From Methylomonas koyamae (lineage in GTDB: Bacteria > Pseudomonadota > Gammaproteobacteria > Methylococcales > Methylomonadaceae): a stretch of DNA of 64,000 bases. Position numbers and translations under genes: made by a program. Under the pieces are notes generated by a model. It saw only the letters and a program-made list of their open reading frames with translations, did not search any database and had not been told where the DNA came from. Shown here piece after piece: positions 19,624-28,327 of this stretch. How positions within the stretch are numbered: the stretch's first letter is position 1; each line of letters starts with the position of its first letter. The DNA is taken from NCBI RefSeq assembly GCF_001644025.1, contig NZ_LUUK01000225.1, positions 1 through 64,000 of the forward strand, given 5' to 3'.

Positions 19624-20514
19624 ATGAATACACCAGACAACAATCATAGCAAGCCCTCCAAGTGCACCATATTAGAATACAGCATCATTGCCATAATAGT
19701 AATAGTTGGTATAGTAGCCTGGAAAAAAGGAACTTTAATCATAGATAACATTAAAACAGCCTTTGGATCTGCCGAAAAAGTAACGATAGACTTCAATGAT
19801 CAAGGCACGACCATAATAAAAAGAAATGACGTCAACGAAAAAGCTAGCCTCCTATTATCTGCAAGCGACTTGTGGGCAAACTCCGGCTTAATGGTTCCCG
19901 CAAAAAAATGCATCACAATAACCGCATCAGGCAAGGCGCAAATAGCGATAAATGACCTGATAAAAAATGCGGAAAAGGATAACAAGCCTAACTATCTGTG
20001 GACTGGACCAAATGGGTATGAGGGAACGCAATTCAGAGCCATTCCCGGCTACTATTCCACCTTTCGTATTTTACCTGAAGCGCCCGATGGCGCTTTGTTA
20101 GCTTACTTACAAGCACCTTCCGACGGCGAGCCAGACCCCGGTCTAAACAATCCAAGACCACACAATCTTAATCGCTGCCAATGTAATGATTCTCATATTT
20201 TCGTGATAAAAAATCAGGCCAAAATTTGCAATACCTGGGATGATGATCGAAGGCTCTGGTTTGTTATTAATGACTCTGTCATTGAAAACAATTTGGAATC
20301 AAAAACAGCATATATCGCTGCACAAAAGTTTTTATGCCGAAAATCAAGCGAATATGAGGAGAGCAAAAAGAACAAAAGCTCCTATATCAAAAAGAACTGC
20401 ACCGAAGACAAATACAACCGATCTTGGAATAATATTGTTGAGCAGCAATACTGGAACATATGGTACGACGACAATATCGGTTTTTTTAGCATCCAAATTA
20501 ACTTCGACACCTAG
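19624..20514 (+). CDS. AT-rich ORF: anchored protein with a LecA-like pattern
   Basis: A 296-residue protein with one N-terminal membrane segment (about residues 19-37), the rest predicted outside the membrane. Residues about 75-220 contain a set of motifs in the order seen in PA-IL/LecA-type galactose-binding folds: LWANSGLMVPA, CITITASGKA, a WTGPNGYEG segment, PDGALLAYL and RLWFVINDSVI. This is a remembered pattern, not a search hit. At least seven cysteines suggest a periplasmic or extracellular location. Base composition is visibly AT-richer than the flanks and codon use favours A/T third positions, pointing to recent transfer. No partner gene is evident. Confidence 0.7.
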   Translation: MNTPDNNHSKPSKCTILEYSIIAIIVIVGIVAWKKGTLIIDNIKTAFGSAEKVTIDFNDQGTTIIKRNDVNEKASLLLSASDLWANSGLMVPAKKCITITASGKAQIAINDLIKNAEKDNKPNYLWTGPNGYEGTQFRAIPGYYSTFRILPEAPDGALLAYLQAPSDGEPDPGLNNPRPHNLNRCQCNDSHIFVIKNQAKICNTWDDDRRLWFVINDSVIENNLESKTAYIAAQKFLCRKSSEYEESKKNKSSYIKKNCTEDKYNRSWNNIVEQQYWNIWYDDNIGFFSIQINFDT

Positions 20515-21618: not shown

Positions 21619-22062
21619 ATGAACACTCATTTATTCAACGACAGCCGCATCCACTGGCAAACCCTGGCCGGTTTCGACCACTTGCACTATTTCATTCTGC
21701 ACATCGATAGCGAAGCCCACATTATCGACGTACTCTTCAAATTCGCCGCCGGCCGACAAATCGTGTTGCATCGCCACAAGGCGCCGAACCACATTTTCGT
21801 CATCCAAGGCGAGCACCGCCTATATCACCCCGACGGCAGTTTGAAGGAAATCCGGCCGACCGGCCGCTACACCGTTAGCCCCGCCAGCGACGAGCCGCAT
21901 CGGGAAGGCGGCGGCGACATCGACGTGGTACTGTTGTTCAGCATACGCGGCTGCGGCGTGCTCTACGAAATCCTCGACGACGACGCCAACGTGATCGGCA
22001 CGCTGGCAATGGCGGACTTCATCGCTTTGCACAATGCGCAACCAGCGTTAACCGATGGATAA
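21619..22062 (+). CDS. Cupin-domain protein
   Basis: A 147-residue single-cupin protein. Cupin motif 1 appears as GRQIVLHRHKAPNHIFVIQG (about residues 47-66), with two His and a later Glu spaced as metal ligands; motif 2 is weaker. Similar stand-alone cupins act as small-molecule sensors or dioxygenase-like enzymes; nothing fixes the role here. It lies 120 bases before the phosphatase gene on the same strand and may share its transcript. Confidence 0.75.
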   Translation: MNTHLFNDSRIHWQTLAGFDHLHYFILHIDSEAHIIDVLFKFAAGRQIVLHRHKAPNHIFVIQGEHRLYHPDGSLKEIRPTGRYTVSPASDEPHREGGGDIDVVLLFSIRGCGVLYEILDDDANVIGTLAMADFIALHNAQPALTDG

Positions 22063-22182: not shown

Positions 22183-22737
22183 ATGGCCGGAACGCGGACC
22201 AGCCACACCCACCCGCTGCAAATTGCCGAAGTGCGCGCCAGCCCGTCGCACGGACGTATCGGCATCACCTTTTGCCCCGGCAAGCACGACCGCTTTGCCC
22301 ACACCGGCGTCTGGGAGCGCGATCTCGGCGTCGATTTGGACGCCATCGCCGCCTGGGGCGCCAAACTGATATTAACCCTGGTGGAACCGGCGGAACTGAC
22401 CGCGCTCAAGGTTCCGCAACTCGGCCACGAAATTCGTAGACGCGGCATCGAGTGGCTGCATTTGCCGATCGCCGACTATTCCGTTCCCACCCACGCTTTC
22501 GAGCAACAATGGCTAACCCAAGGCGCCGACATCCGTCGGCGCTTACGCAAGGGCGAAGACTTGCTGGTACATTGCAAGGGTGGTCTGGGCCGGGCCGGCA
22601 TGATCGCCGCGCGGCTACTGGTTGAACTAGGCATGAACCCGGAAGCGGCGATCCATGCGGTGCGCCACGCGCGCAAGGGCGCCATCGAAACCCCGGCGCA
22701 ACTGGCGCTGGTCCGCCGCACCCAGCCGATCCCATAA
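22183..22737 (+). CDS. CDKN3-like dual-specificity protein phosphatase
   Basis: A 184-residue protein with the cysteine-phosphatase P-loop VHCKGGLGRAG (HCx5R, about residues 127-137) and the N-terminal features of the bacterial cyclin-dependent-kinase-inhibitor-3 group: THPLQIAEVRASP, GRIGITFCPGKHD, and WERDLGVDLDAIAAWGA. The general acid Asp is in LPIADYS. It should remove phosphate from Ser/Thr/Tyr or a related phosphoester. A kinase-like gene begins only nine bases after its stop, so the pair probably forms a reversible phosphorylation unit. Substrate unknown. Confidence 0.85.
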   Translation: MAGTRTSHTHPLQIAEVRASPSHGRIGITFCPGKHDRFAHTGVWERDLGVDLDAIAAWGAKLILTLVEPAELTALKVPQLGHEIRRRGIEWLHLPIADYSVPTHAFEQQWLTQGADIRRRLRKGEDLLVHCKGGLGRAGMIAARLLVELGMNPEAAIHAVRHARKGAIETPAQLALVRRTQPIP

Positions 22738-22746
22738 CCCGCCGAC

Positions 22747-23427
22747 ATGACTACCCTCGATACCGCCAAACTTTCACGGGTAGGCGGACAACTGGGCAGC
22801 AATCCGGCCGGCGTTTATCAAGACGGTAACGGCGGCCGACGCTATTACGTGAAGACGCTAGAATCGGCCGCCCACGCCCGCAACGAATGGCTCGCCGCCC
22901 AACTCTATCAACTGGCCGGCGCGCCGACCCTACGCTACGTGACTACTTCAGCACCGGACCAAATAGCGACCGAATGGATCGTACTGGAAAAGAAATGCCT
23001 GGCCCATTTCACCGACAGCGAGCGCGAACAAGCGCGGCAATGGTTCGGCGTGCACGCCTGGACCGCCAACTGGGACGCCGCCGGCTTCAACGGCGATAAC
23101 CAAGGCGTTGCCGGCGGCCAAGTCCTGACGCTGGACGTCGGCGGCGCCCTGGCCTTCCGCGCCCAGGGCGACCCCAAGGGCAAGGCATTCGGTATCCGCG
23201 TTGACGAGCTGGACGTCTTGCGCCGCGACGACGCCAACCCTCACGCCGTCAAGCTGTTCGCCGCGATGACGCCGGTACAAATCGAACAAGCCATCCTGGT
23301 AGTCGTTCGCATTCCGGACGATGAGATTCGCCAGGTCGTCTTAGCCAACGGCGGTTCGCCAGAGCTAGCCGACAAGATGCTCGCCCGCAAAGCCGATATG
23401 GCTCGGCGTATCGCCTGGAATGAATAA
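22747..23427 (+). CDS. HipA/PI3K-like predicted kinase
   Basis: A 226-residue protein with an eroded protein-kinase-like layout: RRYYVKTLES supplies a candidate ATP-binding Lys (about residue 38). AWTANWDAAGFNGDNQG (about 108-124) resembles a catalytic loop with Asp and Asn, and LTLDVGGALAFRAQG (about 131-145) resembles the metal-binding DFG-type Asp. This DN...DxGG arrangement is familiar from HipA-like and phosphatidylinositol-kinase-like bacterial proteins. It directly follows the phosphatase gene (9-base gap). Kinase activity is inferred, and the substrate could be protein, lipid or nucleotide. Composition matches the host, unlike the R-M genes that follow. Confidence 0.72.
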   Translation: MTTLDTAKLSRVGGQLGSNPAGVYQDGNGGRRYYVKTLESAAHARNEWLAAQLYQLAGAPTLRYVTTSAPDQIATEWIVLEKKCLAHFTDSEREQARQWFGVHAWTANWDAAGFNGDNQGVAGGQVLTLDVGGALAFRAQGDPKGKAFGIRVDELDVLRRDDANPHAVKLFAAMTPVQIEQAILVVVRIPDDEIRQVVLANGGSPELADKMLARKADMARRIAWNE

Positions 23428-23656: not shown

Positions 23657-24571
23657 TTATGCCGTTGTATATTTAGCTGAATTTTCAAAAATAGCGTACT
23701 GAATTGGATGCTCAATTTTTTCAACGGGTTTGGCAATAAAATTTGTCACCAATGCCTCAACAACCGGATTCCTGTTTTCCTCTTTTCCACCAAGGTGATA
23801 GAAATGTTCACGAGTAATAACACTATATTTTGACCATAATGACTTGATATATTCGTTTTCTCGGTAATCGTTATGATGCCACGTTGATAAAATAAACCTA
23901 CCCTTAATGCTCGAGAGTTTGTTAAACAACTCGCGTTCGTGGCTTTCATTCCAACCATTATAGTAATCAACATGCCTGTCAATATAGGGCGGATCGCAAT
24001 AAATAATATCTTGTGACGAAGCTTCGGTAATGGTTTTACCAAAGTCTTGGCATTTGAACGTGAAGTGCTTTGCTTTTATGACTTTGCTTACCCAATCCAC
24101 TTGATTGACAATTTTTGTTACATAGGCTTGGGCAAAGCGTTGCGGCTTGCGGCAAAAGGGGATGTTGAAACCGCCTTTTCTATTGAAGCGGATCATTCCG
24201 TTAAACCCAGCCCGATTAACAAACAAAAAATCAAGAGGTGAATGTTCAGCGTTAAATCTGTCTCTGATAAAATAATAATAATCTTCGCCTTTTTCTAAAA
24301 GTCGAGCACCTTCGCACGTAAGATAAGCTTTAACCACTTCGGCAGTTATGTCCCCAGATGCAATACTTGAGTAAAAATTGATAAGATGAGGGTTTGTGTC
24401 GCTTAATAGCGCATGTTTCGGAGCAACATTAAAAGCAACCGCACCGGTTCCCATGAAAGGCTCAATCCACAAGCCATCAAAATCGCTAGGCACAATACTT
24501 TTTATCCAAGGCACGAGCTTGGTTTTAATCCCTTGAGATTTAATGGGAGGAACAAATACTTTAGCGCTCAT
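23657..24571 (-). CDS. D12-class adenine-N6 DNA methyltransferase of an EcoRV-like system
   Basis: A 304-residue Dam/D12-family enzyme. SAM motif I is [12 protein letters not shown] (about 37-48), the catalytic motif IV is CDPPYID (about 194-200), and an SDTN motif lies in between. Its ATG overlaps the stop of the EcoRV-like endonuclease gene (ATGA), so it is the cognate protective methylase, expected to act on GATATC. The gene is clearly AT-richer than core neighbours. The stop codon sits within GTTATGC (23656-23662, + strand), a motif that recurs on the other side of the pair. Confidence 0.92.
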
Positions 24572-25398
24572 TCTTCGCCATTCCTTTTATCAACCACTAG
24601 CGAAATATCACCATTTTTGTACGCGACAAACTCACGCAACGTAGAAATTTTTTTCGTTCCGCCTTTTCCGTCTTGGATGGTGATTTTTCGGTAATTCATC
24701 CAATATTCGTCAAACCAATTTTCGCCCAATTTTGAAAACATGCCTCGACCGGCTATGATGTCGGCAATATTATTAATACTTCCGATATTCGCCGTATTAC
24801 CGCTACCGCCTTTATCGCTGGCGATTTCCCATTTTTCGGCAACAAAGAACTGGAAATTTTTTACAACGGAGGCAATGGATTGCAACTCATCAATGCGATG
24901 GACTTTGGTTTCATCAATGGTGGCAAAGTCGACTCTATCGTAGATGATGCCCAAGCAAAAATGGCCTGAATAAGAACCGTAAGGGAACTGGATATTTTTG
25001 GTGCTGGCACGATTTTCGAAATACGCGCCGTGTGAGCCGAGCGTAAACCCATTGCATAAATGCGGTTTCTTTGGGTTTCTATAGCTTGTTTTAAAATCCA
25101 CCGCAAATCTGACGGATTCATTATCTGCTTTTACGAACGAAATATCCGGATAGTAGTTTTGGTGCTCAGCAAGCACGACTTTGTATCCGATGGATTGGGC
25201 AAAATGCAAAATTTTTGGGAACAAATGAATTTCAAGAATTTTTGAAACAATCTTGGTGTCGGCTGAAATGGTATATACGTTTTTAAAAATATCAACGAAA
25301 CCTTTAACGGTCCATTGCCCATCTTCGGTGCTGACATAGTCCTTAAGTTCAAGAACAAACGCTTCAAGATTTTTTGCGAAACTTTCTTTTTCAGTCAC
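24568..25398 (-). CDS. EcoRV-like type II restriction endonuclease
   Basis: A 276-residue homologue of EcoRV. The catalytic set is complete and has EcoRV spacing: Glu56 (ILEIHLF), Asp85 (YYPDISF), Asp101 and Lys103 (AVDFKTSY), corresponding to E45, D74, D90 and K92. The major-groove recognition loop is almost unchanged ([12 protein letters not shown], about 207-218), so cleavage at GATATC is predicted. The C-terminal [13 protein letters not shown] also matches. Start is GTG with a poor ribosome site. It precedes and overlaps the methylase gene; no controller (C-protein) gene is visible. Low GC content points to horizontal acquisition. Confidence 0.93.
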
Positions 25399-26702: not shown

Positions 26703-27437
26703 CTACCCAACCCGCCCGCGCCGTTTTAGACCCAACAATCCCATCAGGCCACTACCCATCAACCAAACAGCCCCCGGTATCGGCACGGCCGACAATCGTC
26801 CGGGACTCACCGCCCATACGTAGTGTTGATAAGTCTTCCGGCGGTTGGCCTGACTACTGTAATAGGCTTCAAAATACCACGCGCTACCGGGGGAAGCCGC
26901 ATTCTCGGTACCTGACCAGTACGAAGAGGCTTGCTCGTGGTCGAAGCTACTGGTATTGGGAATGGAATTAGACGCCGAACCGTCCAATTCGCGGTAAACC
27001 AATTGGCCCAGTTCGTTGCCGGCGCTGCCGTCGTATCCGTCGATGGCATTACTGGTTGGCAAGCGCCATTGCGAGCTGCCGCCATAGTTGACGCGATTCA
27101 GTAAGCCAACGAAAGCTTGCGCGCCAAACCAGTTGGCTCTACCGTCCGACGAAAAATCGGTGGTTTTCACGGTGTAAGAACCGGTGTAACCGTCGAAGCT
27201 GTTGGGCGTGTCGCTAACGGTAGGGCTAGCGGCGATAATGGCTTGGATGACGTTTCGGAAACCGTAAGTGCTTTCCAGCGTAGCCAACAGATTGGCGTCT
27301 TGCGTCCAAGTCACGTTGCCGACGCTGCTGTAGACCAAACCAACGTCATCGGCACCGGTAAAGCTGGTCAGCGTGGCGTTGGCGTTGAACGCGGCGGCGC
27401 CGAACAAAACGCCGAAGGTAAGTAGCCTGTGTGTCAT
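26703..27437 (-). CDS. VPLPA-CTERM protein with DUF1566 domain (copy 1)
   Basis: A 244-residue exported protein. Signal peptide at about 1-21 (cleavage after ANA). The DUF1566 (Lcl C-terminal) domain is marked by QWRLPTSNAIDGYDG, YWSGTENAASPGSAWYF and VWAVSPGRL. It ends with a sorting tail: VPIPGAVWLMGSGLMGLLGL plus KRRG, i.e. motif, membrane helix and basic end, as in VPLPA-CTERM substrates of XrtD. The gene has AAGGAG seven bases before the ATG. It is a tandem paralogue of the next gene upstream, 155 bases away. Expected to be processed by the exosortase encoded at 2.2-3.8 kb. Confidence 0.87.
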   Translation of the reverse strand: MTHRLLTFGVLFGAAAFNANATLTSFTGADDVGLVYSSVGNVTWTQDANLLATLESTYGFRNVIQAIIAASPTVSDTPNSFDGYTGSYTVKTTDFSSDGRANWFGAQAFVGLLNRVNYGGSSQWRLPTSNAIDGYDGSAGNELGQLVYRELDGSASNSIPNTSSFDHEQASSYWSGTENAASPGSAWYFEAYYSSQANRRKTYQHYVWAVSPGRLSAVPIPGAVWLMGSGLMGLLGLKRRGRVG

Positions 27438-27592: not shown

Positions 27593-28327
27593 TCATTTTC
27601 TCCGCAAACTCAGCAATCCCATCAGCCCGGTTCCAAACAACGCTAACGCGCCCGGTATCGGCACCGCAGCCACTTGCCCTGGGCTAACGAGCCAAACCTG
27701 ATGCCAGCGATTCTTTTCATCGTAGCCCTGAGCACCGTTTCGAGCATCAAAGCCCCACGCCGCGGCCGGGAAGACGGGCAAGGCCTCAAGACCCGACCAG
27801 TACGGTACCGGCGATTCGTTGTCGAAGGTTGGGGTGTTGGGAATAAACTTGCCGGCGGTACCGTTCAATTCGCTATAAAACAATTGGCCTAGTTCGTTAC
27901 CGGCGGTGCCGTTAAAACCGACAATGGCATTACTGGTCGGCAAGCGCCATTGGTGGCTGCCGCCGTAGTCGATGCTGTTTAAATAGTTGGCGAAGGCGAT
28001 AGCCCCCCACCAACTTAGGGAACCTGAAGAGGGAATGTTGACATTAAAACTGCCGAAATCGCTCGCCGTTAAGGTTACCTGCGGCCCGGACGAGGCGTAA
28101 TAAGTCGTTGTAGGCGTCAACGCGATAACCCGGCTGATTAGCGAATGGTCGGCATTGGACAGGGTTTTGAACAAATTGGCGTCTTGCGTCCAAGTCACGT
28201 TGCCGACGCTACTGTAGACCAAGCCAGCGCCGTCGGTACCGGTGTAACTGGTCAAGCTGGCGTGGACGTTTAACGTGGCGCCGCCGAGTAACAATCCCAA
28301 GGCAACTAAAGTTTTACGGGTATTCAT
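27593..28327 (-). CDS. VPLPA-CTERM protein with DUF1566 domain (copy 2)
   Basis: Also 244 residues and clearly homologous to copy 1 over its whole length: signal peptide (about 1-23), a shared GLVYSSVGNVTWTQDANL segment, the DUF1566 core (HQWRLPTSNAIVGFNG, YWSGLEALP, VWLVSPGQV) and the tail VPIPGALALFGTGLMGLLSL followed by RRK. An AAGGAG ribosome site lies six bases upstream. The central part (about residues 60-110) differs most between the two, which could reflect different binding partners. Function of the DUF1566 domain in these surface proteins is unknown. Confidence 0.87.
   Translation of the reverse strand: MNTRKTLVALGLLLGGATLNVHASLTSYTGTDGAGLVYSSVGNVTWTQDANLFKTLSNADHSLISRVIALTPTTTYYASSGPQVTLTASDFGSFNVNIPSSGSLSWWGAIAFANYLNSIDYGGSHQWRLPTSNAIVGFNGTAGNELGQLFYSELNGTAGKFIPNTPTFDNESPVPYWSGLEALPVFPAAAWGFDARNGAQGYDEKNRWHQVWLVSPGQVAAVPIPGALALFGTGLMGLLSLRRK

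Follow-up and report, generated by a model that had tools for sequence, protein, structure and literature searches.

DraT ADP-ribosylates an arginine of the nitrogenase Fe protein (dinitrogenase reductase), which turns nitrogenase off, and DraG, whose family is that of the ADP-ribosylglycohydrolases (ARGs), takes off the ADP-ribose and reactivates nitrogenase. Among phosphatases, KAP (CDKN3) dephosphorylates the phospho-Thr of CDK2. Iyer et al. 2022 (PMC9503650) predict that systems of an ARG with a rhodanese-phosphatase (R-P) counter viral ADP-ribosylation, and PMC10803253 describes an R. capsulatus strain engineered by draTG deletion to keep nitrogenase active. Among the matches listed by our searches of the openly licensed literature, none described a kinase or phosphatase tied to draT/draG, or such a pair.

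Here we describe a gene pair for a phosphatase and a kinase-like protein in a 64,000-nucleotide stretch of Methylomonas koyamae DNA (GCF_001644025.1, NZ_LUUK01000225.1, positions 1 to 64,000, forward strand), which we call the window. The pair shares its genomes, and at times its gene cluster, with DraT/DraG, and has the same logic of an opposed writer and eraser; however, DraT/DraG are a transferase and a hydrolase, whereas the pair is a predicted kinase and phosphatase and is optional. The fused forms of the pair resemble AceK-like bifunctional kinase/phosphatases in that they likewise combine two presumably opposed activities in a single polypeptide, but the substrate and architecture of AceK are unrelated to those of the pair, which unlike AceK is mostly two genes. 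Unlike the ARG and R-P systems of PMC9503650, the pair in the window includes a kinase and lacks an adjacent ARG; no such kinase is named in the relevant passages of that paper, and its text does not contain the word "HipA".

Predicted folds of the two proteins

The upstream gene (22183..22737, + strand) encodes a 184-aa CDKN3/KAP-like dual-specificity (cysteine) phosphatase, identified from its ORF, Pfam, an AF2 model and a structural match to KAP. A gap of nine bases (22738..22746, +) separates its stop codon from the ATG of the second gene (22747..23427, +), which encodes a 226-aa protein with a HipA/CtkA/PI3K-like atypical kinase fold, identified from its ORF, an AF2 model and structural matches to CtkA and HipA. 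A cupin gene (21619-22062; Cupin_7 by Pfam) lies just before the phosphatase gene, and an EcoRV-type restriction-modification (R-M) pair (23657-25398, − strand) adjoins the pair, with Pfam matches to Endonuc-EcoRV at 1.7e-119 and to D12-class methyltransferase at 8.2e-50. The initial annotation, made from the letters, had reported both ORFs, the nine-base spacing, the cupin and R-M neighbours, and the motifs HCKGGLGR in the first protein and YYVK, NWDAAGFNGDN and DVGG in the second, and all of these are present as described.

The same annotation had called the first protein a CDKN3-like cysteine phosphatase, which is borne out by both sequence and structure searches. The protein matches Pfam PTP-SAK at 2.7e-12 and scores 33.8 bits against Pfam CDKN3, above the cut-off of 20.7. 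The closest structure to its AF2 model (pLDDT 91.4) is human KAP/CDKN3 (1fpz), with Z 19.5 over 163 aligned residues at 2.5 Å, followed by archaeal PTPs and PRLs (PRL-1, Z 17.8). The P-loop HCKGGLGRAG (22570..22599, +), containing the catalytic Cys131 and Arg137 and then Ala138, is a conserved motif: HCx5R with its Cys and Arg is found in 101 of 102 phosphatase rows, the one exception (L074) being a match that ends before the P-loop, and C[KR]GG[LM]GRAG is found in 100 of the 101 rows where the loop is seen. Asp98 (22474..22476, +) is invariant in 46 phosphatases (alignment A5), and we take it, by the PTP mechanism, to be the general acid. The residue after the P-loop Arg is Ala in 100 of 101 phosphatases and Thr in one. 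Typical PTPs have Ser or Thr at this position and PRLs have Ala; Ala138 may make this presumably active phosphatase a slow enzyme. Overall the protein shares its fold and HCxxGxGR loop with CDKN3/KAP and the PRLs, and the Ala after the P-loop Arg with the PRLs, but differs from them in being bacterial and tied or fused to a kinase.

The second protein had been read as a HipA/PI3K-like kinase, and structure prediction gives a kinase fold. Its AF2 model (pLDDT 95.5, pTM 0.92) best matches CtkA (Z 15.3, 206 residues, 3.3 Å), with further matches to HipA (Z 11.3), HipT (10.8), RIOK1 and actin-fragmin kinase (10.5 each) and PI4KIIIb (9.6). Sequence identity is 15% for CtkA, 11-13% for HipA and 10% for HipT. 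We found no match for the protein in Pfam (E<=0.1), including the HipA and PI3_PI4 models, in NCBIfam (E<=1) or in PHROG (E<=0.001), and a single-sequence search of the PDB (E<=10) also gave none; a PDB search with a profile built from 107 kinase relatives yielded a single match at E 0.71, which we do not count as real. The protein thus has the same fold as H. pylori CtkA and HipA/HipT over most of its length but no sequence-level match to them, and its partner is a phosphatase instead of HipB. Both predicted folds are supported with high confidence by the models.

The motif residues picked out by the initial annotation hold up well. K36, E47, N108, D110, N118, D130, G132 and G133 are invariant over 107 kinase sequences, of which 56 come from viral contigs at 36-51% identity, and this conservation far exceeds chance. 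Judged from the alignment, K36, E47, D110, N118 and D130 would fit the ATP-binding Lys, the Glu, the catalytic Asp, the Asn and the metal-binding Asp of a kinase, which makes Lys36 (22852..22854, +) the candidate ATP-binding lysine, Asp110 of NWD (23074..23076, +) the candidate catalytic aspartate and Asp130 of DVGG (23134..23136, +) the candidate metal-binding aspartate. The protein would then bind ATP and transfer phosphate.

The pair as a conserved unit

Scanning 84,980 species genomes with a sequence pattern turned up 84 relatives, and we kept 80 of these loci (59 over 20 kb and 21 shorter). In 80 of 80 loci the phosphatase directly precedes the kinase on the same strand, with the two matches 0-183 nt apart. 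Almost all of these loci belong to Alpha-, Beta- and Gammaproteobacteria; they cover 32 genus names as read from their titles, with hosts that include Methylomonas, purple sulfur and non-sulfur bacteria, Methylocapsa, Zoogloea, Derxia, Ideonella and Marinobacterium; R. rubrum and A. brasilense are not among the names of the 80 loci kept of the 84 relatives. In 101 related genomes, the kinase was found in 20 and a close phosphatase in those same 20, while two further genomes have remote phosphatase matches alone (32-39%). One of the 20 (G023, same genus) has kept draT and retains only a remnant of the pair (L020), apparently through a deletion joining parts of both genes, and we counted it as a remnant and not as an intact pair.

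The two genes can also be fused. In 21 of the 80 loci, including that of R. capsulatus, phosphatase and kinase share a single uninterrupted frame (20 without L074, whose phosphatase match is partial). L022 and L055 are likewise in one frame, giving 23 one-frame pairs over the 101 loci tested; about ten of those 101 loci are duplicates, from genomes that two tools both retrieved. The tree, from which L063, L074 and L099 were left out, requires three or more switches between the fused and the separate form, and Rhodoblastus acidophilus DSM 142 carries two one-frame pairs (L106 and L122) together with two draT genes. The fusion suggests that kinase and phosphatase act on one shared substrate.

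The other neighbours in the window appear in none of these relatives. The cupin, the EcoRV-like endonuclease and its methyltransferase were not found in the 101 related loci (1.8 Mb; tblastn, 1e-5) and are local to the window. Clustering of the ORFs around the 80 loci, a crude procedure that kept the longest frames and recovered the kinase in only 53 of 80 loci, gave no recurrent family in at least five loci besides the kinase, the phosphatase and draG, barring antisense artefacts, and neither protein matched any PADLOC model (0 at E <= 1). Of the reading of the two genes as a phosphatase and kinase cassette with a stress or defence role, suggested by the adjacent R-M system, the folds and the two genes as a unit stand; the note had asked how often the two are adjacent elsewhere, and neither a missing kinase fold nor rare co-occurrence, either of which would have spoken against that reading, was what we saw. 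We reject the defence role via the R-M neighbour, given the absence of cupin and R-M genes from the related loci and of any PADLOC match; the consistent genomic partner is DraT/DraG. A defence-like ancestry of the pair is possible, because relatives of the kinase sit in phage proteins. A HipBA-like toxin-antitoxin system was also considered and rejected, as the constant partner of the kinase is the phosphatase directly upstream.

Association with draT and nitrogenase

The first hint of a link to draT came from a Rhodobacter plasmid on which the pair is convergent to draG and draT. Searches with Rhodobacter DraT and DraG placed draT near the pair in 12 of the 80 loci. Three arrangements occur among these: ten alphaproteobacterial loci, including that of R. 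capsulatus (L130), have a convergent kinase-draG-draT order; draT is divergent from the pair in L122; and, in a Thalassolituus (L127), draT ends 12 nt before the phosphatase, with draG divergent. In the remaining 68 loci draT was not found within the locus stretch, which exceeds 20 kb in 59 of the 80 and is shorter in 21. The source genome has draT and draG together on contig 114 and the pair on contig 225; its only ARG match adjoins draT, and none lies beside the window pair.

The association was also followed at the level of whole genomes. Among 44 genomes picked from earlier listings, the intact pair is present in 21 of 32 with draT vs 0 of 12 without, and all 21 also carry nifH. When only the 37 of these genomes with nifH are compared, the pair is found in 21 of 31 with draT vs 0 of 6 without (Fisher p 0.0034). 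Starting from the pair, draT is present in 75 of 77 pair genomes (39/40 and 36/37), which share descent and account for 78 of the 80 loci; L120, outside the 77, has draT in the locus itself. The two exceptions, L063 and L099, are MAG contigs of 5.4 and 4.2 kb that are possibly misbinned, and both genomes have nifH. Of 41 pair genomes checked for nifH, 39 have it over the cut-off; the remaining two, L068 and L071, nevertheless carry draT.

As a baseline, 369 class genomes contain draT in 19, nifH over the cut-off in 31 and both in 17, so that draT is found in 17 of 31 nifH-bearing class genomes vs 75 of 77 pair genomes. The binomial chance of at least 75 of 77 at a rate of 17/31 is 2e-17, which is an overstatement because the genomes share descent. 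Within the class sample itself the pair is present in 3 of 369 genomes, all with draT (G456, in which a 687-aa frame contains a partial kinase match at 30%, was left out of the counts); among those with nifH it occurs in 3 of 17 with draT vs 0 of 14 without, which is not significant (p 0.15), and the pair is too rare in this sample to separate draT from nifH. An intact pair is missing from 11 of the 32 draT genomes in the picked set, one of which has a degenerate remnant, and from 16 of the 19 in the class sample, which makes it an optional element. Altogether, the near confinement of the pair to draT genomes is well supported as an association. A companion kinase and phosphatase in many diazotrophs, R. 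capsulatus among them, would be a missed control layer, and it is possible that the pair points to such an extra layer of control on nitrogen fixation.

Regulation of the pair by nif promoters was also considered. Among 101 upstream stretches, one of which (L057) is cut by its contig and was wrongly included, sigma-54 sites upstream of the phosphatase with one mismatch number 3 vs 0.3 in shuffles, those with two mismatches 4 vs 5.7, and NifA sites 5 vs 5.2. With motifs near the shuffle level there is no general NifA/sigma-54 promoter signal, and we rejected nif regulation as a general feature of the pair.

Possible substrates of the pair

Outside the bacteria that carry the pair, the kinase domain sits inside large phage proteins. 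Single-sequence and A2 queries gave no viral relatives of the kinase, but the broader A1 query gave at least 581 viral kinase matches in 600 candidate stretches, of which 80 were kept. A domain scan covering 40 phage proteins of 67 frames drawn found NUDIX in 19, ADPrib_exo_Tox in 17 and portal in 12, with NAD:arginine ART in 5, MuF in 4 and Acb1 (an anti-CBASS enzyme) in 2; one protein has a LigT-type domain. Two of the same 40 proteins also have a topoisomerase IB match. The 51 pair-type kinases form one branch of the tree apart from the 56 viral ones (SH-aLRT 100). In a 1,875-aa frame on a Streptomyces plasmid (L023:72-5699) the kinase domain is the last, C-terminal domain, and this frame looks like a polymorphic-toxin layout.

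The phosphatase has a different set of relatives. It has no match in the phages collection, and exact peptide patterns also found none in viral contigs. Its closest plasmid relative outside the pair is a lone Thauera gene (L218, 54%) with no ADP-ribose gene annotated beside it, followed by two phosphatase-ADP_ribosyl_GH fusions on Rhodobacterales plasmids (L217 and L219, 47%), and more distant relatives occur in arsenic operons. Given the lone gene and the arsenic-operon relatives, the substrate cannot be read off the phosphatase fold. The L219 fusion stands beside WYL, HEPN and nuclease genes, an arrangement that resembles the systems of section 3.8 of PMC9503650.

We consider it very probable that the pair belongs to the DraT/DraG circuit. 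The full scheme that we prefer is tentative and, in our judgement, somewhat short of an even chance: the pair would be a dedicated accessory layer on the DraT-DraG switch, with kinase and phosphatase opposing each other on one substrate of the circuit, most likely the ADP-ribosyl group itself. Phosphorylation of ADP-ribosyl-NifH by the kinase would give a locked off state that DraG could not hydrolyse, and the CDKN3-like phosphatase would strip the phosphate and return the adduct to DraG, so that the two would act as a latch. Phosphorylation of the ADP-ribosyl group is favoured because the draT neighbours, the phage ART and NUDIX fusions and the phosphatase-glycohydrolase fusions all concern ADP-ribose chemistry. 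If true, a phosphate on ADP-ribose would represent a novel type of modification, and it would account for the kinase domain in many phage ART proteins and for the phosphatase on some glycohydrolases. A wider and more doubtful extension is that reversible phosphorylation of protein-bound ADP-ribose is general: a kinase that also occurs in host-ADP-ribosylating phage effectors might cap the adduct against ADP-ribosylglycohydrolases and a CDKN3-like phosphatase might decap it, nitrogen fixers having turned this arms-race pair into a nitrogenase latch and bacteria with the phosphatase-glycohydrolase fusions using the decapping half against phages.

The main alternative, which we think rather unlikely, also places the pair in the DraT/DraG circuit but has the kinase modify a protein side chain, on DraT, DraG, NifH or PII, and the phosphatase reverse it. 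The nearest structures of the kinase (CtkA, HipA and RIOK1) are titled or known as protein kinases, the KAP structure was solved with phospho-CDK2, and the co-occurrence with draT fits side-chain phosphorylation equally; however, it leaves unexplained both the association of the kinase domain with ART and NUDIX domains that many phage proteins show and the fusion of close phosphatase relatives to an ADP-ribosylglycohydrolase. Phosphorylation of the ADP-ribosyl adduct, which we prefer, must also be weighed against action on an unbound small molecule of the circuit, whether NAD+, ADP-ribose or a breakdown product, by which the pair would tune the substrate of DraT or recycle the product of DraG. 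The NUDIX, Acb1 and LigT-type domains in the phage kinase-domain proteins are in keeping with this, as is the proposal of Iyer et al. 2022 (PMC9503650, section 3.8) that ARG-coupled R-P phosphatases process released ADP-ribose, but a generic role in NAD or ADP-ribose metabolism needs no near confinement to draT genomes, and we regard it as improbable. Least probable of all is a domesticated phage effector kinase with its antidote, or a defence or toxin-antitoxin cassette, that meets draT only because the two often occur in one group of environmental diazotrophs: the spread of kinase relatives through phage proteins and the Streptomyces plasmid frame, the adjoining R-M system and the failure of the class sample to tie the pair to draT over nifH speak for it, but the separate branch of the pair-type kinases, the co-occurrence with draT among the nifH-bearing picked genomes, the three arrangements with draT nearby and the lack of a PADLOC match speak against it.

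Other genes near the pair and its relatives add some minor observations. A 296-aa protein in the window (19624-20514, +) has by eye an N-terminal membrane segment, and a Pfam search with it gave nothing better than E 0.05. Two tandem paralogues (26703-27437 and 27593-28327, −) look secreted, with a C-terminal PEP-CTERM-like anchor by eye. The lone Thauera phosphatase gene (L218:5007-8532) has a PEP-CTERM protein and a restriction endonuclease as neighbours, a mix like that of the window, perhaps by coincidence.
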